From: Methyloversatilis sp. RAC08
Lineage (GTDB): Bacteria; Pseudomonadota; Gammaproteobacteria; Burkholderiales; Rhodocyclaceae
Assembly (NCBI RefSeq): GCF_001713355.1
Contig: NZ_CP016448.1
Coordinates: 124,001 to 188,000 of the forward strand
Reading direction: 5' to 3'
Length of the DNA: 64,000 bases
Position 1 is the stretch's first letter, and each line of letters opens with the position of its first letter. Below are positions 24,189 to 43,056 of this stretch, piece after piece. Under the pieces are notes generated by a model. That model was not told the DNA's origin. It saw only the letters and a program-made list of their open reading frames with translations, and made no database searches. The position numbers were made by a program, and so were the translations under genes.

Positions 24189-25115
24189 TCAGCGGCTGCA
24201 GTCGCCAAGCGCCATCAGATGCGCCGCCACGGCCGCGCCGATATTGCCCAGACCGTAGCCGCCTTCCAGCGTCGAAATGATGCGGCCCTTGCCTGACGCT
24301 TCGGCGATGTCGCGCAACGCGTGCGTGAGCCAGCGGTAATCGGCGGCTTCAAGCTGGATGTTGGCCAGCGGATCATCGCGGTGGGCATCGAAGCCGGCCG
24401 AAATGAACACGATCTGCGGCTTGAAGGCTCGCAGCGCGGGCAGTGCGTTCTGCGTCCAGTGTCGGCGAAAAGCGTCGCTGCCGTCACCTGCCGCCAGACG
24501 CATGGGCAGATAACCGGCCCGCTCTGGGAAGTTGCCCTGCGGGTAATAAGGATGCTGGAAGCTGTCGGCCATAAGCACGCGCGGCTCGCGCCGGAACATG
24601 CTTTCGGTGCCGTTGCCGCGATGGACGTCGAAATCGGCCACCGCGACGCGCTCGATGCCATGTGCCGCCAGTGCGTGCGCCATGCCGACCGCCACATTTC
24701 CATAGATGCAGAAACCCATCGCATCGCCGGCGCGCGCGTGGTGACCGGGCGGGCGCGTGGCGCAGAACACGCTGCGCGTCCGGCCACCCATCACGAGATC
24801 GACCGCATGCACCACGGCGCCGGCTGCGCGCGACGCAGCCGCAAGCGAACCGGGCGACATGACCGTATCGGCATCGAGTCTGTGCAGGCCGGACGCGGGC
24901 GCGACGTTCTCTACCTCATCCAGATAGGCCGGGTGATGCACGCGTTCGAGTTGCTCGCGGGTGACCCGGGGTGCATCGATGCGCTGCCAGGTGCGCAGCA
25001 GGCCGGCTGCGGCGATGCCATCAAGCACCGCGGTCAGCCGCGCCGGTGCTTCCGGGTGACGCTCGCCGGGTTGGTGGCCGAGACAATCGGCGTGAGTGAG
25101 CAGTACGCAGTCCAT
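24189..25115 (-). CDS. Histone deacetylase-family (class II-type) hydrolase
   Basis: A 308-residue zinc-dependent deacetylase of the arginase/HDAC fold, acting in bacteria on acetylpolyamines or other acetylated small molecules or proteins. Visible features are HADCLGHQPGERHPEAPARL, the active-site His pair RPPGHHA, zinc ligands Asp and His in DFDVHRGNGT, the second Asp in SAGFDAHRDDPLA, and EGGYGLGNIG. I chose the ATG at 25115 (MDCVLLTH), where family similarity begins. The gene ends 40 bp before nfeD on the same strand. Its substrate is unknown. Confidence 0.9.
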   Translation of the reverse strand: MDCVLLTHADCLGHQPGERHPEAPARLTAVLDGIAAAGLLRTWQRIDAPRVTREQLERVHHPAYLDEVENVAPASGLHRLDADTVMSPGSLAAASRAAGAVVHAVDLVMGGRTRSVFCATRPPGHHARAGDAMGFCIYGNVAVGMAHALAAHGIERVAVADFDVHRGNGTESMFRREPRVLMADSFQHPYYPQGNFPERAGYLPMRLAAGDGSDAFRRHWTQNALPALRAFKPQIVFISAGFDAHRDDPLANIQLEAADYRWLTHALRDIAEASGKGRIISTLEGGYGLGNIGAAVAAHLMALGDCSR

Positions 25116-25238
25116 GCGGCGAGGGGCGGCGGGCAAACCTTCGAAGGCCACGACCGGCACGATGACGGAGACAGACCGGATGATAGCGGCAAGCATCGTC
25201 CTCATGACCTACGACACGCTGCGCATCCGGTTTGCGGG

Positions 25239-25267
25239 TTTTCAAGGCGTTTGCAAGCGCCTAGACT
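25239..25267 (+). promoter_or_regulatory. Possible promoter of the TIR-CHAT module
   Basis: A -35-like TTTTCA (25239-25244) and a -10-like TAGACT (25262-25267) are spaced by 17 bp. Each has two mismatches to the sigma-70 consensus. It is the best candidate in the 358 bp between the divergent deacetylase and TIR genes. Confidence 0.35.
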
Positions 25268-25335
25268 CCCCACGTCGCCCGAAAACCGACCCTGCACGGA
25301 CGTTCGTGATGCCGCGCAGGCCCGTGGAGCACACC

Positions 25336-25464
25336 ATGAGCAACGTCGCCCCGTGCATCGGCATCAATGACGGTCCTGTCACCGGCACGGCCCCTCGTGG
25401 CAGCCCGGATGCGAGCGCCTTGGCGTGGCGCCGCATGGCCTTCATCCCCCGCAGTGTGAACTGA
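25336..25464 (+). CDS. Small open reading frame of 42 residues upstream of the TIR gene
   Basis: ATG at 25336 with GGAG 6 bp upstream, ending 9 bp before the TIR gene start. The predicted peptide begins MSNVAPCIGINDGPVTG and ends FIPRSVN; no known family is recognised. It could be a genuine small protein of the module, a leader peptide coupled to TIR translation, or chance. The spacing and ribosome-binding site favour real translation only weakly. Confidence 0.35.
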   Translation: MSNVAPCIGINDGPVTGTAPRGSPDASALAWRRMAFIPRSVN

Positions 25465-25473
25465 GCCCATCCC

Positions 25474-26658
25474 ATGGCACGCCTGTTCATTTCGTACCGT
25501 CGCAAGGACAGCAGTGGCTACGCGCAGACGCTGCACGAGGACCTGTTGCAGGCCTTTCCGGGCATGGAGGTTTTTCGCGACCTTGAGAGCATCGCCGCCG
25601 GTGAAGACTTCGTCGACGCCATCGAGCGTGAACTCGACCGCTGCAACGTCGTGCTCGTACTGGTCGGTCCGCACTGGCTGTCGATGACCGACGCCCAGGG
25701 CAAGCGCCGGCTCGACAATCCGAATGACCCGGTACGCATGGAGATTGCCCGCGCGCTGACCCGGCGCGGTGTACGCGTCATACCCGTGCTGGTCGGCGGT
25801 GCCGTCATGCCGGACGCAGCCGAACTGCCGGAAGAACTGTCGGCACTGGGCCGGCGCAACGCGCACGAAATGACCGACAAGCGCTGGCAGTATGACTTCG
25901 GCGAATTGTGCGGCGTGCTCGAAAAGCTGCCGGGCATGCCGATGCGCAGCACGGCGTCGGACAGCACGACCCACTCCAGCTCGAACAAGAATGCTGCCGG
26001 CGACGACGATCTGCCGCTCCCGGAAAGCTTCAAGAAGCCGGTCGGCCGCGTTATCGGTGCCGCGCGCAAGCTCGTCTGGGGGGTCGGGATTTTTTTCACC
26101 TTCATCATCGTCGTCGCGATATTCGTTGGCGAGGAGGAGACGACGCCCCAACCAGCGCCCGCGCCTGCGCCATTCGCTGCCGATGACCCTGCTCCGGCGC
26201 CCGTGGCGCCTGTGGCACCCGTTGCGGTCGCCACCCTGCCGGCACCCGCCGCGCCCGCGCCGGAACCCGAGCGCGACCTGACCGGCAACTGGACGATGGT
26301 CGATGCACAGGGTGAGCGCATTCCGCTGACGCTGACCCGCCAGGGCAACGACCTGACGTTGCGCAGCCCGCGCATCAACGTCACGCAGCATCCGGTGTGG
26401 CAGGTGTACAACGCCGTGCTGATCCAGACCTACGGTCAGGGCGTGACCGACATCCATTTCGAAGGTGCGGGCGAAGCATACGAGCGCGACGTGAATTTCG
26501 CGCTGAACATCTTTGCCAACGGCAACGTGATGATCAACACCGGCAGCCTCAGCCTGCGCGTCGCCAACAGCAGCACGATGACCGGCACGCTGCGCTACAA
26601 CAGCGGTGAAACGTCGGTTGTCACCGTTTCCCGATCATCGGGGGCGGCCGCGAACTGA
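25474..26658 (+). CDS. TIR-domain protein with one membrane helix
   Basis: A 394-residue protein in three parts. Residues 1-155 are a TIR domain: LFISYRRKDSSGYAQTLHED, VFRDLESIAAGEDF, NVVLVLVGPHWL, and a possible catalytic Glu90 in VRMEIARAL, the place used by NAD-cleaving TIRs. One membrane helix follows (about 201-218, FFTFIIVVAIFV), then a Pro/Ala-rich linker (225-268). A C-terminal beta-rich domain of about 120 residues starts DLTGNWTMVDAQGE and looks like a small barrel. It leads a same-strand series with the CHAT protein 53 bp downstream. A role in NAD depletion or signalling is inference. Confidence 0.82.
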   Translation: MARLFISYRRKDSSGYAQTLHEDLLQAFPGMEVFRDLESIAAGEDFVDAIERELDRCNVVLVLVGPHWLSMTDAQGKRRLDNPNDPVRMEIARALTRRGVRVIPVLVGGAVMPDAAELPEELSALGRRNAHEMTDKRWQYDFGELCGVLEKLPGMPMRSTASDSTTHSSSNKNAAGDDDLPLPESFKKPVGRVIGAARKLVWGVGIFFTFIIVVAIFVGEEETTPQPAPAPAPFAADDPAPAPVAPVAPVAVATLPAPAAPAPEPERDLTGNWTMVDAQGERIPLTLTRQGNDLTLRSPRINVTQHPVWQVYNAVLIQTYGQGVTDIHFEGAGEAYERDVNFALNIFANGNVMINTGSLSLRVANSSTMTGTLRYNSGETSVVTVSRSSGAAAN

Positions 26659-26711
26659 GCGCCTGTCGAGGGCAGAGCGCGATACAAGAACAACAGCAGG
26701 AGGTCAGGACA

Positions 26712-29700
26712 ATGAAACAGTCGAAATACGAGCGTTTCAGCATCCGCGCGCGCAAGGGTGCGCCGGTCAGCACACCATCCGGATCGGAAGTGACGTTCAC
26801 CCCGCTGGGCGCCGTGCAACCGGGCGGCAGTCGTGCCGCTGCAACGGCCGAGCAAGCCGTCATCCCGGCTGATGCGATTGCCCGGGTCACGCTCGACAAC
26901 GGCTTCGAGCTCTGGATACGCGCCGACGACCTGATGCAGGAGGCGGGTTCGAAGGCCGAAACGCGCAGCGATGGTGAAGTGCTGTGGGACATCGGCGACC
27001 TGAACGCACACACCCCGGGCAGCCGCGGGCTGGGCAGCGCGCTCGGTCTGGCGACCCGGGTGATCGAATTCTTCGGCATCGACCTGAAGGACAAGGCACA
27101 GGAATTCGTCGCCCGCCGGCTCGCGACGCGCTTCGAGCGGAAAATCCTCGGCCGCGAGCCGGGGCTGTATCGCTGCGATATCGAGAATGCGGCGCTCGGC
27201 GCGAAGATCGACCGGATCGAGGCGGCGGACGATACGCCGCTGCTGGTGTTCCTGCATGGCACAGCATCGAGCTTCGACGGCAGCTTCGGCAAGCTGGCGG
27301 CTGACGACAACCCGCGCGGCAACGCCGCCTGCGCGCGACTGGCGAGTGTCTATGGCGAAGGCAGCTATGCCTTCGAGCACCGCACACTGACCGTCAGCCC
27401 GATCCAGAACGCGCTCGAACTGGCCGAATCGCTGCCGCAGGGCGCCACGCTGCATCTGGTCAGCCACTCGCGCGGTGGTCTGGTCGGCGAGTTGCTGTGC
27501 CTGGGGCAGCGTGTGCGCAGCAGCGACCCGTTGCGCGCCGAAGTACTGAAACGTCTGTTTGTCGGCGACGTGTCGATCGCGCAGCAGCTGAACATCGAAC
27601 CGCTGGACGAAGCCGGCGAAAAGCGGCTGAAGGAAGACTACGCCGCCGACCGCGACGCGCTGCTGAAGCTGGCCGAAGTGCTGGATGCGAAGCAGTTCCG
27701 GATCACGCGCTTCGTGCGCGTCGCCTGCCCGGCCATGGGCACAACGCTCGCGTCCGGCCGGCTGGATCGCTGGTTTTCGCTGCTGCTCAACGCCAGCCGC
27801 ATCGCCGGTCTGCAGCACGTGCCGCTGGCACCCGAGGCGCTCGACTTCATGGCCGCCGTGCTGCGCGAGCGCACCGATCCACGCGTACTGCCCGGCCTGG
27901 AAGCGATGATGCCCGGCTCGGCCGTCGTGCGCCTGCTGAACCATCCGGAAACGCGCACCGAGTCGGATCTGACGGTGATCGCCGGCGACATCGAGCGTGG
28001 CCACACCATCCTGTCGGCGCTGAAGGTGTTCGTGACCGACTGGTTCTACAAGGGCGAACACGATCTGGTGGTGAATACCGGATCGATGTTCGGCGGCATC
28101 AAGCGCCCGGAACACGGCGCCCGACAGCAGATGGACAAGGGCGACGCGGTCGATCACTTCAGCTATTTCCACAATGCCCGCTCGGTCGACTGGCTGCTGC
28201 AGGGTCTGACCCGCGCTGACGGCTCCGACGCTGGCTTTCGCCCGATCAGCGAGCGGCCGCCGATCCCGCCGGCCTGGCGCAGTGCAATTGCGCGCAGTCG
28301 CGCCGGCGGGCTGCCGAAACCCCTGGCAGTCGTGCTGCCGGGCACCATGGGCAGTTCGCTGAAGGCCGATGGTGATCGCGTGTGGCTGAACTACAAGTCT
28401 CTGGCGTTCGGCGGACTGGAAAAGATAGGCATCGATGCGGCACAGATCGAGGTCGATGGTCTGGTCGACAGCTTCTATGCGCCGCTGATGATGCATCTGG
28501 CGCAGACCCATAGGGTCGAGTTCTTCGCCTACGACTGGCGCAATTCGGTGCAGAGGGCTGCGCAGCAGCTGGCCGAACAGCTCACGCTGTGGCTGCCTGA
28601 CCTGCAGGCACAGAAGCAACCGCTGCACCTCGTGGCGCACTCGATGGGTGGCCTCGTGGTGCGCGCCATGATCGCCGACCGCAAGGGCGCAGAAGTGTGG
28701 CGGCGCATCTGCGAGTTGCCGAACAGCCGCCTGTTGATGCTGGGCACGCCCAATCATGGCTCGCATGAAGCGGTGCGCTGGCTGACCGGACGCAACCCGA
28801 CGCAGTTCAAGCTGATGCTGCTCGATCTGTTGAACAGCCGCGACGGCATCATCGACATCGTCCGGCGCTACCCCGGGCTGGTCGAACTGCTGCCCTTCCC
28901 CGCCGACGGATCGGCGCTGCGTTATGACGATCCCTCTCTGTGGGCCGGCCTGCGCGAAGGACTCGGCGAGCGCTGGAAGCTGGCCGATGCGGGCGTGCTG
29001 CGCGGTGCGCGGCGCACCTGGGACGCGCTGGCCGGCGCAGTCGATGCGCAGCACATGATCTATGTCGCCGGCGTGCAGCCGGAAACAGTGTGCGGCCACG
29101 AACTGATCGACGACGATGGCGCCTTCCGCTTCAACCGTCGAAAGCTGGTGTTTCCGCACACGCCGGAAGGCGACGGCACGGTCACCTGGGCGTCCGGCCG
29201 ACTGCCCGGCGTACCGATGTATTTTGCCGAGAACACCGCGCACGACGCGCTGTGTTCGTACGACTTCGGCCGCAAGACTTTCGCCGGCTACACCGATCTG
29301 CTGCTGAAGGGCTCGACCACGCGCTTGCCGCGCAGCATGGGTGCGGCGCGCAGTGCGCGTGCGACGGTCACCGGCAGCGCGCACGGCGCATCGCCCCCCG
29401 TGCTCGACTCGATTCCGACGGCGGCCGAGGTCGAGCGTCTGGGTTTCGGCCCCGGCAGCCCGCAGCCCACCGAAGCCCCTGCGCAGCCCGGACTCGAGGT
29501 CCAGCTTACCCACGGCGACCTGAGCTACGTGAAGCATCCGCTGATGGTGGGCCACTATCTGGGCGACAGCATCGTCAGTGCCGAACGCGCGCTCGACAAG
29601 CAACTGACACGCCCAGGTGAGCAGGTCGGGCCGCTTACGCAACGCATGGATCTGGGCCTTTATCCCGGACAGATCGGCAGCAGCGCGTTGTTCTACAACG

Positions 29701-32360
29701 ACACGCCCGAAGCACGTCCGGTCGCAGCCATCGTGGTCGGCCTGGGAGAACTGGGCTCCTTGTCGCCCGGACGGCTCGAGTCCACGGTGTCGGACGCACT
29801 GCTGACCTACTGTTTCGAACTGGTGCAGATGCCGGAGGGGAAACGCCCGATCCGCGCCGCCGACATGCGTTCGATGGGGCTGAGCACGGTATTGATCGGC
29901 AGCGGTGCCGGCGGCATGACCTTGCGCGATTCGATCGAGGCGCTGCTGCGCGCGGTCGTGAACACCAATCGCCGGCTGATCGACGCAGGTCTGGGGGACC
30001 GCATCTACCTGTCGAAACTGCAGCTGATCGAACTGTTCCAGGACGTGACCATCAATGCCGCCGACGCGCTGGATGACGTGCTGGCGTCGGTCGACTTCGG
30101 CGCCGATGTGCGCTGGCCGGAACAGACCGTGCACGCGGGCGACGGCGGTCGCCGCCGGGTCAGCTTCGACAGCGACGGTGACTGGTGGCACCGGCTGGAA
30201 ATATGCACCGACCCGGAAGACACGCGGCTGCGTTTCGTGTCGTCGACCAACCGTGCGCGTGCCGAGGAAACCATTGGCCTGGGCCAGCTGTCGCTGGCCG
30301 CCAGGTTCATCGAGCGCGCGTGCACGCAACCCGGTCGCAATCGCGAAGCGGCACGCACGCTGTTCGACATGCTGCTGCCCAACCGGCTCAAGGAGCTGGC
30401 GCCGGAAAATCACAACCTGCTGCTGGTGCTCGACGAAAAATCGGCCGCCTACCCGTGGGAATTGCTGGAAGATCGCTGGGCGACCAACCCGCTGCCGCCC
30501 GCCGCCCGCAGCGGCCTGCTGCGCACACTCAGAACACCGGAATTCCGGGCACAACCGGTGCACGGCACCGAACTGTCGGCACTGGTCATCGGCCACCCGG
30601 ATCTGGAAGGCTGGGACAAGTTCATCGACCTGCCGGGCGCGCGCGACGAAGCGCAGCATGTCGCCGAATGTCTTACCGAACTGGGCTACCAGACCGACGC
30701 GTGCATCGACGCGACCCATACCGACATTCTCGAAAGCCTGCACCGGCGCCGCTGGCGCATCCTGCATCTGGCCGGTCACGGCGAACACGACTACCGGGTC
30801 GAGGGCCACCGCGGCGCACCGACGTCAGCCGGTGACAGGCCACTGTCAGGCATGGTGATCGGGCACGGCGTGCTGCTCACGCCGGGCGATGTCGAACAGA
30901 TGCGCTACGTACCCGAACTGGTGTTCATCAACTGCTGTCACCTCGGCAAGACACGCTCGCAGGACAAGCAGGCCTTCCCCGCCCTGGCCGCCAATCTGGG
31001 TGTGCAGTTCATCCGCATGGGGGTGAAGGCGGTGGTGGCAGCCGGCTGGGCGGTCGATGACGATGCTGCCAAGACCTTTGCCGCGACGTTCTACCAGCGC
31101 ATGCTGGCCGGCGACCCGTTCGGCGAGTCCGTGCGGGCGGCGCGACGCGCCTGCGTGCAGCAGCATCCGCAGTCGAATACATTTGGCGCCTACCAGTGCT
31201 ACGGTGATCCGGGCTTTCGCCTGCTGCGTGCGCAGGGCGACGGTTCGCGCTCGACCGCCCGCCCGCCCGGACCGCTGCACTCGCATGCCGAGCTGGTCAG
31301 CAATCTGGACAATATGCGCGAATCGGTGCGCATGCAGTCGTCTGCGACCGACGGCAGGTGGCTGCAGGGCAGCGTCGACGCTCTGTTCGACCGCGTGCCC
31401 GACGCCAGCCGAGAAAGATGGCTGGCCCGCGCCGATGTGCGCGCAGCACTCGGCTTTCTGTGGGGCGAGATCGGTGACTACGCGCGGGCGATCGAACACC
31501 TCGACGCTGCACTGTCGGCCAGCAAGGGCGATTGCCCGATCCGGGTGGTCGAACAGTGCGCGAATTTCCGCGTTCGGCTGGCGGGACGACGCTGGCTGGA
31601 ATCCCTCGCCGGCGACGCACCGGACGAAGCCCTGCGCGAATCGCTGCGCACCTCGATCATCGCCGCCATCATGGAACTGGACCTGCTGATCCAGCGCGCC
31701 CGCACGCCGGAACGCCTGAACATGATGGGTGCCGCATGCAAGCGGCTTGCGCTGGTAACCACGGGGCAGGAGCGCCAGGAGTCGCTGGTCAACATGGCCA
31801 CCTACTATCGCGACGCCTTCGAAATGGAGGGCAGCAGCAGCGCCTACCCCTTCGTCAACAGCGCACTGGCCGACCTGTTCGCCACGGCAGGCGATCCGGA
31901 TTACACACCGCTGTGGGCGCGTGATGCGCTGCTCAGCGAGGCGGAACGCATCCGTGTCGCCTGCGAGGCCGAACATTGCGACGAACCCGGCCTGTGGCTG
32001 GCGACCGGCATCGCCGATTGCCGGTTGCTGTCGATGATCGCCGAAGCCCTGCCGGCGCCGCCCGACAAGCCGGCCGCCAAACGGCCGCGCGCGCCGGCCC
32101 GCAAGCCGGCGAAGCGCGCGCCAGTCCGTGATGACGCCATCGATGAGAAATTCGACCGCGTGCTGAACGAGTACCTGAATGCCTTTCGCCGCGGCGCCAG
32201 CCCGCGCGAACGCGCATCGATCACCGAAAACTTCGATTTCCTGGTTGCGCTGCTCGATGGCGCTGATGCTGCGCCGTCGGTACGCAGTGACGACTCCGGA
32301 CTCAAGCCGGTGATTGCGGCACTGGTCAACATGCGCAACCGCTTCCGGGAGCTGCCATGA
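26712..32360 (+). CDS. Giant alpha/beta-hydrolase - CHAT protease - TPR-like fusion
   Basis: A protein of 1882 residues. In order: a first alpha/beta-hydrolase unit (about 170-480) with FLHGTASSFDGSF and nucleophile Ser253 (SHSRGGL); a second, LCAT/PGAP1-like unit (about 535-870) with LPGTMGSSLK and Ser644 (AHSMGGLVVR); a region of about 930-1130 containing GDLSYVKHPLMVGHYLGD and LGLYPGQIGSS, seen before CHAT domains elsewhere; a CHAT caspase-like protease (about 1300-1500) with His1356 (AGHGEH) and Cys1409 (INCCH) as the likely dyad; and a helical TPR-like tail (about 1530-1830) with a Lys/Arg/Pro/Ala-rich insert. AGCAGGAGG precedes the start. It overlaps the next gene by 4 bp. It looks like an effector combining lipid-ester hydrolysis with proteolysis; no function is proven. 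Confidence 0.85.
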   Translation: MKQSKYERFSIRARKGAPVSTPSGSEVTFTPLGAVQPGGSRAAATAEQAVIPADAIARVTLDNGFELWIRADDLMQEAGSKAETRSDGEVLWDIGDLNAHTPGSRGLGSALGLATRVIEFFGIDLKDKAQEFVARRLATRFERKILGREPGLYRCDIENAALGAKIDRIEAADDTPLLVFLHGTASSFDGSFGKLAADDNPRGNAACARLASVYGEGSYAFEHRTLTVSPIQNALELAESLPQGATLHLVSHSRGGLVGELLCLGQRVRSSDPLRAEVLKRLFVGDVSIAQQLNIEPLDEAGEKRLKEDYAADRDALLKLAEVLDAKQFRITRFVRVACPAMGTTLASGRLDRWFSLLLNASRIAGLQHVPLAPEALDFMAAVLRERTDPRVLPGLEAMMPGSAVVRLLNHPETRTESDLTVIAGDIERGHTILSALKVFVTDWFYKGEHDLVVNTGSMFGGIKRPEHGARQQMDKGDAVDHFSYFHNARSVDWLLQGLTRADGSDAGFRPISERPPIPPAWRSAIARSRAGGLPKPLAVVLPGTMGSSLKADGDRVWLNYKSLAFGGLEKIGIDAAQIEVDGLVDSFYAPLMMHLAQTHRVEFFAYDWRNSVQRAAQQLAEQLTLWLPDLQAQKQPLHLVAHSMGGLVVRAMIADRKGAEVWRRICELPNSRLLMLGTPNHGSHEAVRWLTGRNPTQFKLMLLDLLNSRDGIIDIVRRYPGLVELLPFPADGSALRYDDPSLWAGLREGLGERWKLADAGVLRGARRTWDALAGAVDAQHMIYVAGVQPETVCGHELIDDDGAFRFNRRKLVFPHTPEGDGTVTWASGRLPGVPMYFAENTAHDALCSYDFGRKTFAGYTDLLLKGSTTRLPRSMGAARSARATVTGSAHGASPPVLDSIPTAAEVERLGFGPGSPQPTEAPAQPGLEVQLTHGDLSYVKHPLMVGHYLGDSIVSAERALDKQLTRPGEQVGPLTQRMDLGLYPGQIGSSALFYNDTPEARPVAAIVVGLGELGSLSPGRLESTVSDALLTYCFELVQMPEGKRPIRAADMRSMGLSTVLIGSGAGGMTLRDSIEALLRAVVNTNRRLIDAGLGDRIYLSKLQLIELFQDVTINAADALDDVLASVDFGADVRWPEQTVHAGDGGRRRVSFDSDGDWWHRLEICTDPEDTRLRFVSSTNRARAEETIGLGQLSLAARFIERACTQPGRNREAARTLFDMLLPNRLKELAPENHNLLLVLDEKSAAYPWELLEDRWATNPLPPAARSGLLRTLRTPEFRAQPVHGTELSALVIGHPDLEGWDKFIDLPGARDEAQHVAECLTELGYQTDACIDATHTDILESLHRRRWRILHLAGHGEHDYRVEGHRGAPTSAGDRPLSGMVIGHGVLLTPGDVEQMRYVPELVFINCCHLGKTRSQDKQAFPALAANLGVQFIRMGVKAVVAAGWAVDDDAAKTFAATFYQRMLAGDPFGESVRAARRACVQQHPQSNTFGAYQCYGDPGFRLLRAQGDGSRSTARPPGPLHSHAELVSNLDNMRESVRMQSSATDGRWLQGSVDALFDRVPDASRERWLARADVRAALGFLWGEIGDYARAIEHLDAALSASKGDCPIRVVEQCANFRVRLAGRRWLESLAGDAPDEALRESLRTSIIAAIMELDLLIQRARTPERLNMMGAACKRLALVTTGQERQESLVNMATYYRDAFEMEGSSSAYPFVNSALADLFATAGDPDYTPLWARDALLSEAERIRVACEAEHCDEPGLWLATGIADCRLLSMIAEALPAPPDKPAAKRPRAPARKPAKRAPVRDDAIDEKFDRVLNEYLNAFRRGASPRERASITENFDFLVALLDGADAAPSVRSDDSGLKPVIAALVNMRNRFRELP

Positions 32361-32932
32361 GTGACCGCGATCTGGCAAAGGTGGCGCTCGGCGCGCTGCA
32401 CATCGCCGGCTGCCAGTCGCGGGACAAGGTGTCGCCGCACTTCCGGCTGTACGAACTGACACGCTCCGACATCGCCTCCCGACAGGGCATTCCGAACGCC
32501 TTTCCGTCGGATGCCGAGTTCCGCGCCGCAGTGCATCTGGCGCGCGAGGTACTCGAGCCGGTGCGCGCCAAGTTCGGCAGCTTCACGCCGAACAGCGTGT
32601 TCCGCAGCCAGGCCCTCGAACGCGCCCTCAAGCGCAAACCGTCGAGCTGGGTCAGCAGCAGCCAGCACGCGCGCGGGGAAGCGTGCGACATCGAAATCGT
32701 AGGTGTCGCCACGATCGCACTCGCCGAGTGGGTGGCGGAGCACATCAAGGTGTTCGATCAGATCATCTGCGAATGCTACGACCCGGCCAAGGGCCCGAAT
32801 TCGGGTTGGGTGCACGTGTCGCTGCGCCCCCCGGGCGGCGCGCCGAACCGTCGTCAGCTGCTGAGCTACGTACGTGATCCGCGCTCCGGCGCCTACCGTT
32901 ACGTACCGGGGCTGACCAGCGATACGGCATGA
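32357..32932 (+). CDS. Peptidase M15-type (D-Ala-D-Ala carboxypeptidase-like) protein
   Basis: A 191-residue protein with the fold of phage endolysin-like and VanX-like M15 metallopeptidases. The N-terminal VSPHFRLYELTRSD is typical. Zinc ligands can be placed at His104 and Asp111 (SSQHARGEACDIEI) and His153 (SGWVHVSL). There is no signal peptide, so it would not reach peptidoglycan without lysis, export or damage to the membrane. It overlaps the CHAT gene stop (ATGA), which ties it to the same module. No other phage genes are nearby. Confidence 0.8.
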   Translation: MSDRDLAKVALGALHIAGCQSRDKVSPHFRLYELTRSDIASRQGIPNAFPSDAEFRAAVHLAREVLEPVRAKFGSFTPNSVFRSQALERALKRKPSSWVSSSQHARGEACDIEIVGVATIALAEWVAEHIKVFDQIICECYDPAKGPNSGWVHVSLRPPGGAPNRRQLLSYVRDPRSGAYRYVPGLTSDTA

Positions 32933-32972
32933 TGCGGCGCGTCGAATCCACTTTTCCGCCGCAGCGCACGCG

Positions 32973-33536
32973 ATGACCACCTTCCTGTTCAGCGGTCACC
33001 TGATGGACCGTCCCGACCGCGCGGCAGCGCGCTTTCCACCGGCGATGGAGCCCGCGGCGGCGGCCGCGATCGCCGCTGCGCTGGACCGCCACGGCGCCAG
33101 TGCCGGCGACATCGCATTCAGTCAGGCCGCATCCGGCGGTGACCTGCTGTTCCTCGAGGCATGCGCCGAACGCGGGGTGAGACGCCGCATCCTGCTGCCC
33201 TTCGACATCGCCACCTTCGAACAGACCTCGGTCAGGCCGTCGCTGGACGGCGAACGCTGGGTCGAACGCTATCGCCGGGCGCTCGCAGCACCCGGCGCAG
33301 CGGTACAGGACATGCCGACGGCGCTCGGCCCGCTGGCCGATGGCCGCGATCCCTACGAGGCCTGCAATCGGTGGCTGGTGGACGAAGCGCTCGCGCATGC
33401 CAGTGGTGCGCTCTGCTTCATCTGCCTGTGGAATGGCGACGGACCCGAGGGCCCGGGCGGCACGGCTCACATGGTGGCCGAAGTCGGCGCGCACGGCGGC
33501 CTGATCGAGCACATCGACACGCGCCTGCTCGTCTGA
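32973..33536 (+). CDS. SLOG-like Rossmannoid protein
   Basis: A 187-residue soluble protein. It starts with a hydrophobic strand and a Gly-His turn (TFLFSGHLMDRPDR), has the pattern SQAASGGDLLFLEACAERG, then ILLPFDIATFEQTSV, WVERYRRAL and ICLWNGDGPEGPGGTAHMV. This pattern matches domains found beside TPR, cyclase and CHAT genes and resembles SLOG nucleotide-binding proteins. It lies 40 bp after the M15 gene on the same strand and is the last member of the module. A sensor role for a nucleotide signal is inference; similarity could not be measured. Confidence 0.55.
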   Translation: MTTFLFSGHLMDRPDRAAARFPPAMEPAAAAAIAAALDRHGASAGDIAFSQAASGGDLLFLEACAERGVRRRILLPFDIATFEQTSVRPSLDGERWVERYRRALAAPGAAVQDMPTALGPLADGRDPYEACNRWLVDEALAHASGALCFICLWNGDGPEGPGGTAHMVAEVGAHGGLIEHIDTRLLV

Positions 33537-33638: not shown

Positions 33639-34994
33639 ATGAGTCTGCGCATCAGACTCACCCTCATCATTGCATCGCTGATGACCTTGCTGGTCGTTGC
33701 CGACAGCGTGCGCAGGCTGTACGACGCCCACGATGACGCAGTCGCCGAGATGGAATCGGTCGCCCGGCTGGCGCACGCGCTGCTGCCCAGCGCGCTGTCG
33801 CCGCCGCCGATCGGCGTCACGGCCGAGACACTTCTCGCCCGCATCCAGCTCACCCACGAGCTGAGCAGCCTGCGCCATCTGACCGTGGAAGTGCGGTCGG
33901 CGAGCGGCCAGCTGATACTGAGCTCACGCACCGGTCCGCAGCAATCCGCGCCCTTTGCGCTGGGCTGGATGGGTGAGCGTCTGCGCAGCCGCTCGCCGCT
34001 GCGCAAGGACATTCTGGTGGGCCAGCAGGTCATCGGCTACTACCTGCTGGTGCCCAATGCCGACGACGAATTGCGCGAGATATGGAACGACTACGTCAAG
34101 CAGACCTCGATGGTCGCCGCGATCGGACTGATCGCCTGCCTGATGGTGTTCTGGGCGGTCGGTCGTGCGCTGCATCCTTTGGGCAGCGTGATGCGTGCGC
34201 TGTCGGCGATCGGCGAAGGACGGCTCGACGCAAGGCTGGAAAATGTCGGTCCGGGTGATCTTGCGCCGCTGTCGGAATCGTTCAACAGCATGGCGTCCAC
34301 CCTTGAAGCGGCGGTCGACGAACGCGCACGGCTGCTGCGCAAGCTGATTACGCACGAAGAAGAAATCCGCCACGCGCTGGCGCGCGACCTGCACGATGAG
34401 CTGAGCCCCTATCTGGTGGCGATACACCCGCATGCACGGCTGCTGGCGGACGCCTGCGAAGGCCGGCCGGAACTGGCCGAGCATCGCGAATCGGCACGCT
34501 GGATGTCGGAACAGGTCGGCCACATGCTGCGTCTGGTGCGCAATCTGCTCGAACACCTGCGCCCGCCCGACATCGAAGAGCTCGGTCTGGGACACGCGCT
34601 TCGAGAGCTGGGCAAGCAGCGCAGCCGCTGTGCCGACGCGGCCCAGGTGAATTTCGATCTGCACGAGGATCTGGGACAGTTGTCGGCGATGCACGACATC
34701 ACGCTGTACCGCATCGTGCAGGAGTGCATGACCAACACCGTCAAGCATGCGCGCTGCACCCGCATCGACATCGCGCTCGACATCGATCCCGTTGCAGGCC
34801 GTGTATCGCTGCGCGTGCGCGACGATGGTGAGCCAAGGCCGCACGCCACGCCCGAGAGCGGCTTCGGTCTGGTCGGCATGCGCGAACGCGCACTGGCGCT
34901 GGGCGGCGACTGCCGTGCCGGCCCGCGCCCCGAAGGTGGCTGGCAGGTTGACGCCTGGCTGCCGCTGAAAACTTCGATACTGGAAAAACCATGA
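33639..34994 (+). CDS. NarX-type sensor histidine kinase (MoxY-like)
   Basis: A 451-residue membrane kinase. One helix at the N-terminus (about 6-22), a periplasmic part of about 130 residues, a second helix (about 155-172), HAMP, HisKA_3 with His252 (ALARDLHDELSPYL) and a GHKL ATPase (QECMTNTVKHA, GFGLVGMRERA). The short N-terminal sensor looks like the LapD/MoxY type, seen in methanol-oxidation regulators and others. It overlaps the response regulator by 4 bp. The ligand is unknown. Confidence 0.9.
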   Translation: MSLRIRLTLIIASLMTLLVVADSVRRLYDAHDDAVAEMESVARLAHALLPSALSPPPIGVTAETLLARIQLTHELSSLRHLTVEVRSASGQLILSSRTGPQQSAPFALGWMGERLRSRSPLRKDILVGQQVIGYYLLVPNADDELREIWNDYVKQTSMVAAIGLIACLMVFWAVGRALHPLGSVMRALSAIGEGRLDARLENVGPGDLAPLSESFNSMASTLEAAVDERARLLRKLITHEEEIRHALARDLHDELSPYLVAIHPHARLLADACEGRPELAEHRESARWMSEQVGHMLRLVRNLLEHLRPPDIEELGLGHALRELGKQRSRCADAAQVNFDLHEDLGQLSAMHDITLYRIVQECMTNTVKHARCTRIDIALDIDPVAGRVSLRVRDDGEPRPHATPESGFGLVGMRERALALGGDCRAGPRPEGGWQVDAWLPLKTSILEKP

Positions 34995-35674
34995 GCCTGC
35001 ACAACCCGATCCGCGTCCTGCTCGTCGACGACCATGCAGTCGTGCGCGCCGGCTATCGTCGTTTTCTCGAACACAACCGGGCGATGGAGGTGGTCGGCGA
35101 AGCCGGTACCTCGGACGAGGCCTATCAGCTGTTCCGCATGCTCAAGCCGGATGTGGTGGTGATGGACATTTCGCTGCCCGGTGCCAGCGGGATCGAAGCC
35201 ACGCGCCGCATGCTGGCGCTGGACAACCGCGCCCGCGTGCTGATGTTCTCGATGCATGCACAACCTGCGTTCGCGCGCCAGGCGCTGGAAGCCGGTGCGA
35301 TAGGCTTCCTGACCAAGGACACCGAACCCGAAGCGCTGGTGCAGGCCGTGCTCGCCGCGGCGCAGGGGCGACGCACGCTCAGTCCGCGCGTGGCCGAGCA
35401 ACTGGCGCTGGACAATGTGATGCCGGACGAAAAGCGGCTCGACGTGCTGACGCCGCGCGAATTCGAAATCTGCCGCCTCCTGCTGGCCGGCATGTCGGTC
35501 GACGAAATCGCCGACGCGCTCAAGCTCAGTCCGAAGACGATATCGAACCGCATGAGCGAAATCCGCCAGAAGCTCGACGTGCGCAGCGATGTCGAACTGG
35601 TGCGCCTGGCCACCGCAGCCGGACTGGTGCCCTGGGCGGCGCGGCCGGACGCTGCGGGCGATTTTGGTCAATGA
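34991..35674 (+). CDS. NarL/FixJ-family response regulator
   Basis: A 227-residue regulator. The receiver contains LLVDDHAVVRAGYRRFLE, the phospho-acceptor Asp59 (VVMDISLPG), a Ser (MFSMH) and Lys (FLTKDTEPE). The C-terminal LuxR-type helix-turn-helix is LTPREFEICRLLLAGMSV followed by DEIADALKLSPKTISNRM. It is translationally coupled to the kinase (ATGA). Targets cannot be told from the window. Confidence 0.93.
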   Translation: MSLHNPIRVLLVDDHAVVRAGYRRFLEHNRAMEVVGEAGTSDEAYQLFRMLKPDVVVMDISLPGASGIEATRRMLALDNRARVLMFSMHAQPAFARQALEAGAIGFLTKDTEPEALVQAVLAAAQGRRTLSPRVAEQLALDNVMPDEKRLDVLTPREFEICRLLLAGMSVDEIADALKLSPKTISNRMSEIRQKLDVRSDVELVRLATAAGLVPWAARPDAAGDFGQ

Positions 35675-38728: not shown

Positions 38729-39292
38729 TTAGATCTTGCCGACCAGGTCAAGCGACGGGGTCATCGACTGAGCGCCCGGCGTCCACTTGGCGGGGCAGAC
38801 TTCGCCCGGATGCGACGTCACGTACTGGGCAGCCTGCACCTTGCGCAGCAGTTCCTTTGCATCGCGACCAATGCCGAGTTCGACGATTTCGGCCATGCGG
38901 ATCTTGCCTTCCGGGTCGATCACGAAGGTACCGCGCAGCGCCAGACCGGCTTCTTCGATCATGACGTCGAAGTTGCGGGTGATGGCACCGGTCGGGTCAC
39001 CGATCATCGGGTACTTGATCTTGCGGATGGTGTCCGACGCATCGGCCCAGCCCTTGTGCACGAAGTGCGTATCGGTCGAGACCGAATAGATTTCGCAACC
39101 GATCTTCTGGAACTCGCCGTACATGTCGGCCAGGTCACCCAGTTCGGTCGGGCACACGAATGTGAAGTCAGCCGGGTAGAACACGAAAGCCGACCACTTG
39201 CCCTTCAGGTCTGCTTCGGTGATGTCTACAAACTTGCCGTTGTGATAAGTGGTTGCCTTGAAGGGTTTAACGGTTGTTCCGACGAGGGACAT
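38729..39292 (-). CDS. ahpC: AhpC, alkyl hydroperoxide reductase peroxiredoxin
   Basis: A 187-residue typical 2-Cys peroxiredoxin. The peroxidatic cysteine is in ADFTFVCPTELGDL, the resolving cysteine in HPGEVCPAKW, and the fold-typical GTFVIDPEGKIR is present. It reduces organic and hydrogen peroxides and is recycled by AhpF. AGGAAA lies before the ATG at 39292. The palindrome at 39357-39377 is a likely control site. Confidence 0.97.
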   Translation of the reverse strand: MSLVGTTVKPFKATTYHNGKFVDITEADLKGKWSAFVFYPADFTFVCPTELGDLADMYGEFQKIGCEIYSVSTDTHFVHKGWADASDTIRKIKYPMIGDPTGAITRNFDVMIEEAGLALRGTFVIDPEGKIRMAEIVELGIGRDAKELLRKVQAAQYVTSHPGEVCPAKWTPGAQSMTPSLDLVGKI

Positions 39293-39356
39293 CTGTATTT
39301 CCTTTCTTTCTTCGTGGGTGGAGGAAAACATCTTATTTTCTAACCGAGCGGATCAG

Positions 39357-39377
39357 ATTTTAGACTTAATCTAAAAT
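39357..39377. promoter_or_regulatory. AT-rich 21-bp palindrome upstream of ahpC
   Basis: ATTTTAGA and TCTAAAAT are perfect 8-bp arms around CTTAA, 65 to 85 bp before the ahpC ATG. It does not fit the OxyR ATAG-N7-CTAT pattern and looks more like a Fur/PerR-type or other dimeric repressor site. The surrounding 39293-39593 stretch holds no gene. Confidence 0.5.
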
Positions 39378-39560
39378 TTTTTCCACCCGTCACACACCGG
39401 CAGGTTCAACGCCTGCAAATTCCCGGATGACATGCCGGCCGAGCCGCGGAACGCGTCCACAATTCGATTGTACCCAATATATCAACGCGTGCAGAAACCC
39501 TGCATCCACATTGCGTCACCCGTGCACGTTGGGGCGCGACATGAACAGATCAAGACCTCA

Positions 39561-39582
39561 TTGCGGAAATCCGGTTCCGCAA
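39561..39582 (-). terminator. Possible terminator hairpin after acr3
   Basis: TTGCGGAA (39561-39568) and TTCCGCAA (39575-39582) are perfect arms around a 6-bp loop, 11 bp beyond the acr3 stop on the minus strand. No U-run follows, so its strength is uncertain. Confidence 0.35.
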
Positions 39583-39593
39583 CCAGTGATGAC

Positions 39594-40604
39594 TCAGACA
39601 GGAAAGCAGTGCCTGTTCCGGTTGGTGAACGCCACCAGCGACAGCATGACCGGCACTTCGACCAGAACGCCCACCACGGTGGCCAGCGCAGCGCCGGAGT
39701 GAAGACCGAACAGCGAAATCGCCACCGCAACCGCCAGCTCGAAGAAATTCGAGGTGCCGATCAAGCAGGCCGGCGCCGCCACGCCATACGACAACTTCAT
39801 GCGACGCGCTGCGATGAAGGCAATGGCGAAGATGCCGTAGGTCTGGATGATCAGCGGAATCGCGATCAGACCGATCACCAGCGGCTGTGCCCAGATCGTC
39901 TCCGCCTGGAAGCCGAAAAGAAGCACGACCGTGGCCAGAAGACCGACGATGGAAGCCGGTTTCAGGCGAGCCACGAAACGCGCCAGCACATCACCTTCGC
40001 GCAGCACGCGTCGTGTCAGCACGCCGGCGACCAGCGGCAGCACCACATACAGCAGCGTCGACAGCAGCAGCGTCTCCCAGGGCACGGCCACATCGGTCAC
40101 GCCGAGCAGAAAGGCCGCGATGGGCGCGAACGCGAACACCATGACCAGATCATTCACCGATACCTGCACCAGCGTGTAGGCGGGGTCACCCTTCGTCAAT
40201 TGGCTCCATACGAACACCATCGCCGTACAGGGCGCGACACCGAGCAGGATCATGCCGGCGATGTATTCGCTCGCCGACTGCGGATCGACCCAGGGCGCAA
40301 ACAGGTACCGGAAGAACAGCACGCCGAGCGCCGCCATCGTGAACGGCTTGACCAGCCAGTTGATGACCAGCGTGAGCACCAGGCCCTGCGGCCGGCGACC
40401 GACATCGCGCACGGCAGCAAAATCGATCTGGATCATCATCGGGTAGATCATCACCCAGATGAGTACAGCGACCACCAGATTGACGTGCGCGAATTCCAGC
40501 GCCGCAACCGCCTCGAACGCGCGCGGCGCCAGCAGGCCGAGCCCCACGCCCGCCACAATGCACGCTGCCACCCAGACGCTCAGCCAACGTTCGAACAGTC
40601 CCAT
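39594..40604 (-). CDS. acr3: Acr3-type arsenite efflux permease
   Basis: A 336-residue membrane permease with about ten helices that exports arsenite. Family features are [16 protein letters not shown], the conserved cysteine in [12 protein letters not shown], the segment [20 protein letters not shown] and [15 protein letters not shown]. It is the last gene of a minus-strand operon (arsR, arsI, arsC, acr3), 9 bp after arsC. The C-terminus is a little shorter than most relatives, ending at NRHCFPV. Confidence 0.94.
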
Positions 40605-40613
40605 GGCGTGGCC

Positions 40614-41105
40614 TCAGCGGTCGGCCAGACTGCGCGCGGTCTGTTCAATGCGAAGCGCGTCCAGGCGTTCGCCAGGCAGCGCGACCAGTATTTCGAGCCG
40701 TCGGCGGATCAGCGTCATCGTGTCGCGGAAGGCCATCAGCCTTGCCGCGTCCGGACCGGTCGTGGCGGACGGGTCGGCGTAACCCCAATGTGCCGTCGCG
40801 GGATGGCCCGGCCATACCGGGCACAGCTCGCCGGCTGCGCTGTCGCAGACGGTGATGATGAGATCCATCTCCGGCGCACCGGGTTCGGCGAACGTGTCCC
40901 AGCTCTTGCTGCACACACCGGTCGTATCCACGCCCGCTTCGGCCAGCGCCTGCAGCGCAAACGGATTCACCCGCCCCGAGGGCTGGCTGCCGGCCGAAAA
41001 CGCGCGGAAACGGCCGGCGCCCAGATGGTTCAGCAGGCACTCGGCGAGCACGCTGCGCGCCGAATTGTGGGTGCACAGAAACAGCACGTTCAGTGGCGCG
41101 CCCAT
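40614..41105 (-). CDS. arsC: ArsC, thioredoxin-type arsenate reductase
   Basis: A 163-residue low-molecular-weight phosphatase-fold enzyme reducing arsenate to arsenite for Acr3. The P-loop-like VLFLCTHNSARSVLAE supplies the nucleophilic Cys11; further redox cysteines occur in GVCSKSWDTF and TVCDSAAGELCPVW. The ATG at 41105 begins the family sequence and lies 1 bp after the arsI stop. The open frame further upstream overlaps arsI and is not used. Confidence 0.92.
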   Translation of the reverse strand: MGAPLNVLFLCTHNSARSVLAECLLNHLGAGRFRAFSAGSQPSGRVNPFALQALAEAGVDTTGVCSKSWDTFAEPGAPEMDLIITVCDSAAGELCPVWPGHPATAHWGYADPSATTGPDAARLMAFRDTMTLIRRRLEILVALPGERLDALRIEQTARSLADR

Positions 41106-41106
41106 G

Positions 41107-41598
41107 TCAGCAACACCCGGAACCGGACGACTTGACCCCGATGGCAAGCGGCTTGCCGCGCGTGACGGGCGCCTTGGGCGCACAGCAGGCTGATGTCGCT
41201 GCATCGGCCGCCACAGCCGGCGCTTCGTTGAACACCGGAATGTCGCCCAGCGTATGAAAGTGTTCCCATGCAATGCCCTGCGGATCGGTGATCCAGTGCT
41301 TTTCGCTGCGCGCGTAGCAGCAGCTGGTGGCACCTTCGTCCAGCAGCGCCATGTCGGCCGCTTCGGCGCTCGCCTTCATCGCTGCCAGTTCGGTCGGGTC
41401 ATCGGTCTGGATGCCCAGATGATCGATGCCCGGCTGACTGCCGCGGGTGGAAATCGCGAAATTGACCGGCGGATCTTCCAGCATCCATTTGGCGTAGTCC
41501 GCCTCGTGGCGCGCAGGTTGCGCGGAAAAGAGCTGGTTGTAGAAGGCGATGCTCCGTGCGAGATCGTCGACGTGCAGATGAACGTGAAAGCGCTTCAT
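41107..41598 (-). CDS. arsI: ArsI/CadI-family C-As lyase
   Basis: A 163-residue extradiol-dioxygenase/glyoxalase-fold enzyme that splits the C-As bond of trivalent organoarsenicals. Seen are HVHLHVDDLARSIAFYNQLF, His60 (GIDHLGIQ) and Glu112 (AWEHFH) as iron ligands, and the substrate-binding vicinal Cys93-Cys94 (SCCYARSEKHW), the hallmark of ArsI. The C-terminus has extra Cys residues (SACCAPK, GSGCC). It lies between arsR and arsC. The Cys pair supports ArsI over a CadI-only role. Confidence 0.88.
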   Translation of the reverse strand: MKRFHVHLHVDDLARSIAFYNQLFSAQPARHEADYAKWMLEDPPVNFAISTRGSQPGIDHLGIQTDDPTELAAMKASAEAADMALLDEGATSCCYARSEKHWITDPQGIAWEHFHTLGDIPVFNEAPAVAADAATSACCAPKAPVTRGKPLAIGVKSSGSGCC

Positions 41599-41610
41599 GG
41601 CGGACTCCTT

Positions 41611-41937
41611 TCAGCAGGTTTTGCAGACAGGTGCTACCGGTTCGGCACAGGACGTGCCGCGGCAGCAGTTTTCGGTCAGATAGCCGAGCAGCGCGTTCAT
41701 CTGCGCATAGTCGGCGCGGTAGATCAGGTGACGGCCATCGCGCGTCGGCACGATCAGTCCGGCGTGGCTCAGTTCCTTCAGATGAAACGACAACGTGGTC
41801 GGCGCGACATCCAGCGCCTCGCCCAGCGCACCGGGCGTCATGCCGTCAGGACCGGCGACGACAAGGGCGCGAAACACGCGCAGGCGGATTTCCTGGGCAA
41901 GCGCCGACAGCGAGCGGATGACGTTCTGTTCTTCCAT
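41611..41937 (-). CDS. arsR: ArsR-type arsenic-responsive repressor
   Basis: A 108-residue winged-helix repressor. The helix-turn-helix is TPGALGEALDVAPTTLSFHL followed by KELSHAGLI. It lacks the ELCVCDL metal loop of classic ArsR; instead the C-terminus carries Cys91-Cys92 and Cys97 (NCCRGTSC), the arrangement of the Acidithiobacillus ArsR group that binds As(III) and methylarsenite. The AT-rich inverted site upstream is its likely operator. Confidence 0.92.
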   Translation of the reverse strand: MEEQNVIRSLSALAQEIRLRVFRALVVAGPDGMTPGALGEALDVAPTTLSFHLKELSHAGLIVPTRDGRHLIYRADYAQMNALLGYLTENCCRGTSCAEPVAPVCKTC

Positions 41938-41939
41938 AA

Positions 41940-41968
41940 TTCAATAATACTTGAAATATGAAATTGAA
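41940..41968. promoter_or_regulatory. Probable ArsR operator in the divergent promoter region
   Basis: TTCAA (41940-41944) and TTGAA (41951-41955) form an inverted pair with 6-bp spacing, and a further TTGAA lies at 41964-41968. They sit between arsR (minus) and the cupin genes (plus), so one site could control both directions. Confidence 0.6.
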
Positions 41969-42088
41969 CAAGCAGCCGGTGCCGGGCAGACGCTGCGTCA
42001 GGTTGAATCCGGTCGTAACATGATGACCTGTCCGTACGCATCATCATCATGCCGGAGCGCGCCCACAGCTGACGTCGATGAAAACCCG

Positions 42089-42460
42089 ATGAAAACCACC
42101 CGCACCGACATTTCTGCCTACATCACGAAGGATGGCTCCCAGATCCGCGAACTGATGCATCCGTCGCTGCATGGCGGGCACGCACAAAGCCTGGCGGAAG
42201 CGACCATCCCCGCCGGCACGCGCACCCTGCTGCATCGGCACGGCGTGACCGAAGAGCTTTATCACGTGACCGCCGGCCAGGGCAGCATGATCTTGGGCGA
42301 CGCTTGTTTTGACGTGGCGGCAGGAGATACCGTACTCATTGCACCCGGCACGCCGCACTGCATCGAAGCCACCGGCGCCGGAGCATTGGTCATCCTGTGC
42401 TGCTGCAGTCCGGCGTATGCGCATGCCGACACTGAACTGCTGGAGGACGGCGCGCCATGA
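42089..42460 (+). CDS. Cupin-fold protein, ars-linked (first)
   Basis: A 123-residue single-domain cupin: RTLLHRHGVTEELYHVTAGQ gives the metal-binding His residues, and APGTPHCIEATG gives the second motif. The unusual LVILCCCSPAY has three adjacent cysteines. The frame is open to 41951, but the family sequence begins at the ATG at 42089. It overlaps the next cupin by 4 bp. Its function in arsenic handling is not known; location beyond the arsR operator suggests arsenic control. Confidence 0.75.
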   Translation: MKTTRTDISAYITKDGSQIRELMHPSLHGGHAQSLAEATIPAGTRTLLHRHGVTEELYHVTAGQGSMILGDACFDVAAGDTVLIAPGTPHCIEATGAGALVILCCCSPAYAHADTELLEDGAP

Positions 42461-42789: not shown

Positions 42790-42795
42790 GCGGCT

Positions 42796-43035: not shown

Positions 43036-43056
43036 GTGCGTCTCCTCGTTGAAGCG

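Follow-up and report, generated by a model that had tools for sequence, protein, structure and literature searches.

The kind of system to which the locus studied here belongs is known in outline from type IV Thoeris, from the endolysin genes near bacterial gasdermin operons, and from TPR-S/CHAT conflict proteins. Burroughs and Aravind are said to have named the TPR-S domain (J Bacteriol, 2020) and to have predicted that it senses NAD-derived signals, and reportedly treated conflict proteins with TPR-S, CHAT, and DRHyd domains. Type IV Thoeris is described as a system in which N7-cADPR from a TIR protein activates a caspase-like protease, while in type II Thoeris His-ADPR acts on macro-domain effectors (PMC12847820). 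For bacterial gasdermin operons, PMC9612521 reports lysozymes and amidases nearby, counts both C14 and CHAT peptidases as caspase-like, and proposes a “holin-endolysin mimicry.” Three further sources are relevant: PMC7159879 describes conflict systems, one of them with lysozyme-type effectors, in text where the terms TPR-S, M15, and CHAT are absent, and cites a reference whose title identifies YpsA as a SLOG protein; PMC8195603 deals with TIR, caspase, and alpha/beta-hydrolase effectors in text where “chat” occurs and TPR-S, M15, and SLOG do not; and PMC13174449 presents a TIR-like NADase defence family in text that mentions neither CHAT nor TPR-S.

The window, i.e., the whole stretch of DNA analysed (64,000 nucleotides from the 3.94 Mb genome of Methyloversatilis sp. 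RAC08), contains four genes that an initial annotation, made from the sequence, had interpreted as a candidate undescribed conflict system. They encode a TIR protein, a protein of 1882 residues with hydrolase, CHAT, and TPR-S domains (here called the hub), an M15-type peptidase, and a SLOG-like protein. In the titles and abstracts searched neither the hub nor the four-gene set was described, although most subscription papers fall outside this coverage, so that their absence from the literature is unproven. “Undescribed” was nevertheless too strong a word, since TPR-S conflict proteins are already known. Signalling from TIR to a caspase has also been published (PMC12847820), as has the presence of endolysin genes in caspase/gasdermin operons (PMC9612521). 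The interpretation as a whole is partly supported by the results below.

The locus shares with type IV Thoeris an operon that pairs a TIR domain bearing a catalytic-type Glu with a protease of the caspase superfamily, and likely an NAD-derived signal. It differs in that the protease is a CHAT domain within a large multi-hydrolase hub, that the TIR protein is membrane-anchored, that an endolysin-type peptidase and a SLOG partner are present, and that the Thoeris models are not reached. With the bacterial gasdermin operons it has in common a caspase-like protease (C14, CHAT), a membrane breach, and a wall hydrolase nearby; here, however, opening the membrane would fall to lipase-like domains in the same polypeptide as the protease, with TIR or metacaspase as the trigger. 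None of the four proteins matches a gasdermin family (Pfam, E ≤ 1), and no CD-NTase or STAND NTPase, as in CBASS or in STAND systems (Avs, CARD-NLR), occurs among their Pfam matches. Our tentative reading, to which we give slightly less than an even chance, is that the four genes form a self-contained programmed-lysis module, probably directed against phages.

A Four-Gene Unit in Methyloversatilis

The genes occupy positions 25474-33536 of the window on the + strand, in the order TIR, hub, M15, SLOG-like (Table 1), and the strand and spacing initially given for them proved exact (gaps of 53 bp for TIR/hub, -4 bp for hub/M15, and 40 bp for M15/SLOG-like). The start of the locus had been placed at 25239, 235 bp 5′ of the first codon; no in-frame ATG, GTG, or TTG start was found upstream of 25474. 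Base composition of the module resembles that of its flanks, and promoter-like sites within it occur at chance level only.

All four genes, with their order kept and at 64-97% identity, are found in five other Methyloversatilis genomes between the deacetylase gene HDAC and the histidine-kinase gene HK, and the arrangement is, therefore, not a product of chance. The block is thus present as one unit in 6 of the 13 Methyloversatilis genomes and missing from the site in the other seven, for all of which the empty site was fetched. HDAC and HK lie 0.14-0.9 kb apart at five of these seven sites (match ends 135 bp from each other in G006 and 890-909 bp in G001, G002, G004, and G011); they are separated by 1772 bp in G005, and no HDAC match was found within the stretch fetched from G008. 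A close orthologue of HK is present in 13/13 genomes, and HK and RR stand together in the seven block-free ones. Because of this distribution of HK and the proximity of HDAC and HK at most block-free sites, the unit appears to consist of exactly the TIR, hub, M15, and SLOG-like genes, with the two-component pair outside it. HK/RR (33639-35674) had been considered as part of the module and were rejected on the same grounds.

The SLOG gene is followed, at a distance of 102 bp and in the same orientation, by the HK gene, which would suit a housekeeping role in envelope maintenance, with the TIR protein as a scaffold and the hub lipases and M15 remodelling the envelope under the neighbouring HK/RR. 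This is very unlikely, since HK orthologues are also present in the seven genomes without the block at the site and since the M15 protein carries no evident export signal.

Some features of the surroundings are recorded for completeness. The histone-deacetylase-like gene (24189-25205) is divergent from the module and lies near HK at five of the seven empty sister sites. Further downstream, within 38729-44061, the local G+C content dips to 0.56 at 39-40 kb, beside genes whose products carry SBF transporter, LMW phosphatase, glyoxalase, HTH_20 regulator, cupin, thioredoxin, and ArsP-type permease domains. Elsewhere in the same genome, an open frame of 915 aa contains another, distant CHAT-like match (G000:C1:1826817-1827206, locus L002), which several Methyloversatilis relatives also have.

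Table 1. Positions in the window of the four genes, their domains, and the evidence for each.
Feature	Position	Strand	Evidence
TIR protein, 394 aa	25474..26658	+	Pfam TIR_2, E 2e-13
TIR domain with Glu90	25486-25890	+	Pfam TIR_2
TM-like stretch, residues 200-218	about 26071-26127	+	Crude hydropathy
TIR C-terminal domain	about 26218-26637	+	Residues 249-388, matched also in L033
Hub, 1882 aa	26712..32360	+	Two alpha/beta-hydrolases, M17_N-like, CHAT, TPR-S
Hub domain 1, DUF7379 alpha/beta-hydrolase	27237..28211 (approximate)	+	Pfam, E 5.4e-32
Hub domain 2, LCAT/group XV phospholipase A2-like	28320..29351 (approximate)	+	Pfam LCAT, E 7.6e-6; PDB group XV PLA2, E 1.1e-8
Hub domain 3, M17_N-like (leucyl aminopeptidase N-terminal domain)	29532..29771	+	PDB 3jru N-domain, E 8.2e-6
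Hub domain 4, CHAT caspase-like protease, His1356/Cys1409	30345..31172	+	Pfam, E 2.2e-30
Hub domain 5, TPR-S (Tetratricopeptide Repeats-Sensor)	31476..31865	+	Pfam, E 4.8e-13
M15_3 peptidase, endolysin type, without evident leader	32357..32932	+	Pfam Peptidase_M15_3, E 5e-6, over cut-off
SLOG-fold protein, 187 aa	32973..33536	+	AlphaFold model; YpsA fold match

Domains and Candidate Active Sites

The proteins themselves largely bear out the initial description of a membrane-anchored TIR protein, a hydrolase-CHAT-TPR protein, a leaderless M15-type peptidase, and a Rossmannoid SLOG-like protein (Table 1). That annotation had also staked its reading on catalytic residues being kept in homologues, and in those aligned they are indeed conserved.

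The best PDB relatives of the TIR protein are SARM1 chains (E 6.4e-5). Its Glu90 aligns with a SARM1 Glu that we take to be the catalytic one, and it is kept in 14/14 hub-linked TIR domains in an alignment without the near-duplicates L031 and L032. The TIR protein may cut NAD. A single TM-like stretch would anchor it, and its charge pattern suggests that the C-terminal domain probably lies outside the inner membrane. The NCBIfam Thoeris models were not reached, the best being the type III model ThcB4 with 45.8 of the 220 bits required over residues 3-69 only; likewise, PADLOC gave ThsB at 30.8 bits for residues 3-69, and its Thoeris protein models were not matched.

For the hub, 32 of the 41 sequences collected were aligned. 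Ser253 (31/32), Asp451 (32/32), and His482 (32/32) form the candidate triad of the first hydrolase and Ser644 (31/32), Asp821 (32/32), and His844 (32/32) that of the second, both assigned by motif and conservation, and His1356 and Cys1409 of the CHAT domain are each present in 32/32. According to its PDB sequence matches, the second hydrolase belongs with LCAT and group XV phospholipase A2. The TPR-S domain scores above its Pfam cut-off (50.0 vs. 27.6 bits), a likeness to the TPR-S/CHAT/DRHyd conflict proteins. Pfam Peptidase_M17_N was found in 6/32 hub homologues (best E 5.2e-7), the hub of the window falling below it. M17_N has a macro-like fold, and this stretch of the hub thereby resembles the TM-macro effector that accompanies TIR in type II Thoeris; by sequence, however, M17_N is not a macro domain, and the effector is a different one. 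The structure model of hub residues 880-1740 is poor (pLDDT 43.8) and supports no fold claim beyond the TPR region, which alone is confidently helical; any account of the interplay of the hub domains is, therefore, guesswork.

The M15 protein exceeds the Pfam cut-off (27.1 vs. 23.2 bits) and matches PHROG 894, “endolysin,” at 1.4e-25; a PDB sequence match was not found at E ≤ 0.1. Its candidate zinc ligands His104, Asp111, and His153 are invariant in the five sequences aligned, four of which are from Methyloversatilis. A strongly hydrophobic N-terminus was not detected by crude hydropathy, which is not a signal-peptide predictor. A lipase and a wall hydrolase are commonly delivered together, and the two activities could accordingly be read as antibacterial effector cargo directed at rivals. 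We consider this extremely unlikely, as no secretion-system gene was seen in a non-exhaustive view of the annotated parts of the neighbourhood and both the CHAT-TPR-S hub and the TIR protein resemble intracellular signalling parts.

The fourth protein, small and apparently of a nucleotide-binding type, gave no Pfam match at E ≤ 1, and among PDB sequences it matched no SLOG protein. Its AlphaFold model (pLDDT 82.5, pTM 0.83), however, matched YpsA (2nx2) in Foldseek (E 4.4e-4, probability 1.00, TM 0.56), the only PDB match under E 0.001, and a profile comparison links its glycine-rich C-terminal motif (residues 147-182) to a YAcAr protein (score 44.2 vs. at most 16.8 in 50 shuffles; P 7e-7). 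With a Rossmannoid fold in the model and the glycine motif, the protein is placed in the SLOG superfamily, in likeness to YpsA (DUF1273) in fold and to YAcAr in motif; it differs in having only 14% identity to YpsA and a YAcAr match confined to the motif. Its initially proposed role as a sensor is unproved.

Hub Relatives and Their Partners

A search of 101 genomes, namely that of the window and 100 relatives, detected hub relatives at E ≤ 1.1e-100 in 28, including 13/13 Methyloversatilis; in a class sample, 10 of 369 genomes had one at E ≤ 1e-150. Plasmids carry them in Azotobacter, Ensifer, and Paracoccus and, at half length, in Rhizobium. Within Methyloversatilis the hub is found at at least three different places with differing partners: besides the module of the window, a TIR, a hub, and a 381-aa protein occur together in six other genomes beside a putative glutamyl-tRNA synthetase gene, and G002 has a metacaspase and a hub. 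Conservation of the neighbourhood, on which the initial annotation had relied, thus holds in part, i.e., the exact four-gene set was seen only in six of the 13 genus genomes, whereas the hub recurs widely with the same classes of partners.

Neighbouring genes were counted in 33 dereplicated loci, near ones being within two genes of the hub and far ones at the fourth or fifth position from it. This count leaves out Methyloversatilis loci that are nearly identical to others, L060, L093 (which shares its place with L119), and the part-hub loci L051, L052, and L121-L123. Among 125 near and 95 far proteins, 123 and 94, respectively, were scanned, leaving out three short ones. By Pfam, the near proteins include 17 with Peptidase_C14, 8 with TIR_2, and 3 with nSTAND1, families which are not among the 25 commonest of 201 for the far proteins. 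PADLOC caspase matches were present in 16/123 near and 0/94 far proteins (Fisher 9e-5; the far list covers all matches at E ≤ 1e-10). The enrichment of TIR over far neighbours is weak, with p 0.011 for no far TIR and 0.081 for one. Single restriction-, BREX-, Zorya-, and Fic-type matches are in the PADLOC far list, and defence-like genes are, therefore, not limited to the near set. The hub, M15, and SLOG-like proteins of the window matched no PADLOC model at E ≤ 0.1.

A metacaspase partner was recognized by BLAST in 16 loci, with both catalytic motifs in 16/16. L097 and L116 each hold both TIR and metacaspase, as do L045 and L119 with the two farther apart; consequently, they are not simple substitutes for each other. 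Locus L028 combines a metacaspase and a hub with the same M15 as in the window. STAND genes stand beside the hub relatives of L058, L061, and L119, a patatin phospholipase is found in two hub loci, and restriction genes also occur around hub relatives. Hub partners thus vary, comprising TIR and/or metacaspase, patatin, STAND receptors, and free or fused SLOG.

Seven loci (window, L027, L036, L045, L061, L097, and L102) have a free SLOG-like gene at 0.6-6.2 kb from the hub, on the opposite strand in L036 and L097. In L029, L038, and L093 the SLOG domain makes up the C-terminal portion of a protein of 660 aa, in which TPR-S was found in the two cases tested (L029 and L093). The N-terminal part of these proteins is presumably of the DRHyd type. 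In the class sample the hub was present in 4 of 13 genomes with SLOG, compared to 10/369 overall (p 1.8e-4; p 0.002 without the window's genome), one of the four having the hub on a different contig.

Mapped onto a hub tree with 37 rows, the label for the wall hydrolase switches 4 times and that for the trigger (TIR, C14, both, or none) 10 times, and the nearest relatives of the form in the window include L028, with a metacaspase instead of TIR and the same M15; this was a quick tree without a mixture model, which carries a long-branch warning and does not include L061 with its half-length hub.

Several proteins beside hub relatives deserve mention in their own right. A family of ~250 aa without useful Pfam match adjoins the hub in two distant loci (L029:13412-14182 and L061:11569-12315). 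On Paracoccus plasmids (L059:4190-7471 and L060:4369-7560) the gene before the hub encodes ~1,090 residues with a SBP_bac_3 solute-binding domain (tested in L059), possibly a different trigger. A 995-aa protein with a caspase domain (Pfam 5.1e-7) lies at L102:10079-13066, flanked on one side by a free SLOG gene and on the other by a pair of metacaspase and hub genes, so that this locus holds a second caspase. At L105:8999-10822 a SLOG domain is part of a 607-aa protein whose C-terminal part reads like a nucleotide cyclase, and L100, L104, and L109 contain further SLOG carriers of ~600 aa.

The occurrence of a hub relative in every Methyloversatilis genome is unusually regular for an anti-phage system. 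It would agree with regulated lysis outside immunity, built from immune-type parts and serving the release of DNA, gene-transfer agents, or biofilm matrix, or developmental autolysis. A precedent is described in PMC13236601, where an immune-like system, resembling CARD-NLR, drives lysis for gene-transfer agents in Caulobacter. We nonetheless judge this explanation rather unlikely: the several genus sites of the hub with their different partners are typical of exchanged defence modules, and STAND receptors, restriction genes, and plasmids surround hub relatives. Carriage by phages or prophages was rejected, as viral contigs gave one short partial match to the hub profile, in hydrolase 2 (L124), and nothing with the SLOG profile; phage records gave no SLOG match either.

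Wall Hydrolases Beside the Hub

At least 5 of the 33 loci encode, on the hub strand and no more than two genes from the hub, a wall hydrolase recognized by Pfam, i.e., M15_3 in the window and L028, GH108 with PG_binding_3 in L061, Amidase_2 with SH3 in L116, and GH46 with PG_binding_1, adjoining the metacaspase, in L044. This figure is without full control, since single hydrolases, near or far, could escape the lists of the 25 commonest families; among the 25 commonest of 234 Pfam families no wall hydrolase was found for the other 28 loci. The distances to the hub or its metacaspase are -4, 16, 33, 36, and 205 bp. The four Pfam families are unrelated to one another, and none of the five proteins has a strongly hydrophobic N-terminus by crude hydropathy. 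In PHROGs, M15, GH108, and Amidase_2 match phage endolysins or amidases over their catalytic part, GH46 via its binding domain only. As background, 13 of 31 genomes have M15_3, at 17 places in all, of which six are the present module. PG_binding_1 has two members near hubs, one of which was traced.

Two other candidates were not counted. The 381-aa partner found in the other Methyloversatilis clade (L030-L035) is only suggestive of a wall hydrolase: it resembles the GH46 protein of L044 (BLAST 3e-4, that pair only), has no useful Pfam match, a best PDB E of 0.7, a PHROG of unknown function, and a profile comparison with M15 at 3% probability. A 239-aa protein beside L097, lysozyme-like by eye, was dropped as it matched neither Pfam nor PHROGs.

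The wall hydrolases also bear on the similarity with type IV Thoeris. A Thoeris-like system, in which the TIR product activates CHAT and cells are killed by protein degradation, while the M15 and lipase-like parts serve as accessories or target infecting particles, would share the operon layout of a TIR and a caspase-like protease (PMC12847820), and it would accord with the invariant CHAT dyad and the intact motifs of the metacaspases. We regard it as somewhat unlikely, however, because both hydrolase triads are conserved nearly as well as the CHAT dyad, the recurring wall hydrolases would need a reason, and even the best NCBIfam Thoeris model covers a small part of the TIR protein far below its threshold.

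A Possible Mechanism of Lysis and Its Implications

Our preferred reading of the locus as a programmed-lysis module draws on the conservation of the predicted active-site residues of the TIR domain, both hydrolases, CHAT, and M15. It draws also on the metacaspases, TIR proteins, and wall hydrolases recurring near hubs, on the combination of genes in L028, on the presence or absence of the block as one unit, and on the co-occurrence of SLOG and hub. Points against it are that the hub, M15, and SLOG proteins match no PADLOC model, that TIR enrichment is weak, that TIR and metacaspase can occur in the same locus, that no wall hydrolase was found among the families listed for 28 loci, and that the hub model is poor. 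While gene content, domains, conserved active-site residues, unit borders, and partner variation are observed, the order of events is reconstructed from the parts. The TIR protein in the inner membrane would be triggered, perhaps via its outer domain, and convert NAD to an ADP-ribose-type signal. The hub would read this signal through its TPR-S and/or M17_N-like domain, and the SLOG protein would act as a second reader, an amplifier, or a brake. The CHAT protease would then be released and cleave other targets and/or the hub in which it sits; the two lipase-like domains, set free in this way, would attack membrane phospholipids. The resulting breach would let the cytosolic M15 endolysin onto the peptidoglycan, and the cell would lyse before phage maturation. 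A wall enzyme without leader needs a breach of the inner membrane, as in phage holin/endolysin lysis, and a cytosolic endolysin would, therefore, become lethal once the membrane is open. In relatives of the module a metacaspase takes the place of TIR, and other wall hydrolases that of M15.

A wider proposal, which we consider possible but hold with clear reserve, is that these loci represent a distinct form of lysis immunity. The hub would combine a caspase-like switch with membrane-opening lipases that replace the holin or gasdermin, unrelated phage-type endolysins would have been captured repeatedly as an exchangeable wall-cutter, and TIR and metacaspase would be alternative or stacked triggers. 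Since the module is small, with clear borders and candidate active sites for each enzyme, every step is open to tests with point mutants, and the presence of TIR and metacaspase before one hub offers a natural test of a shared switch. If true, the system would connect NAD signals derived from TIR with caspase-like proteases and with holin-endolysin lysis of the phage type, three subjects that have so far stood mostly apart.
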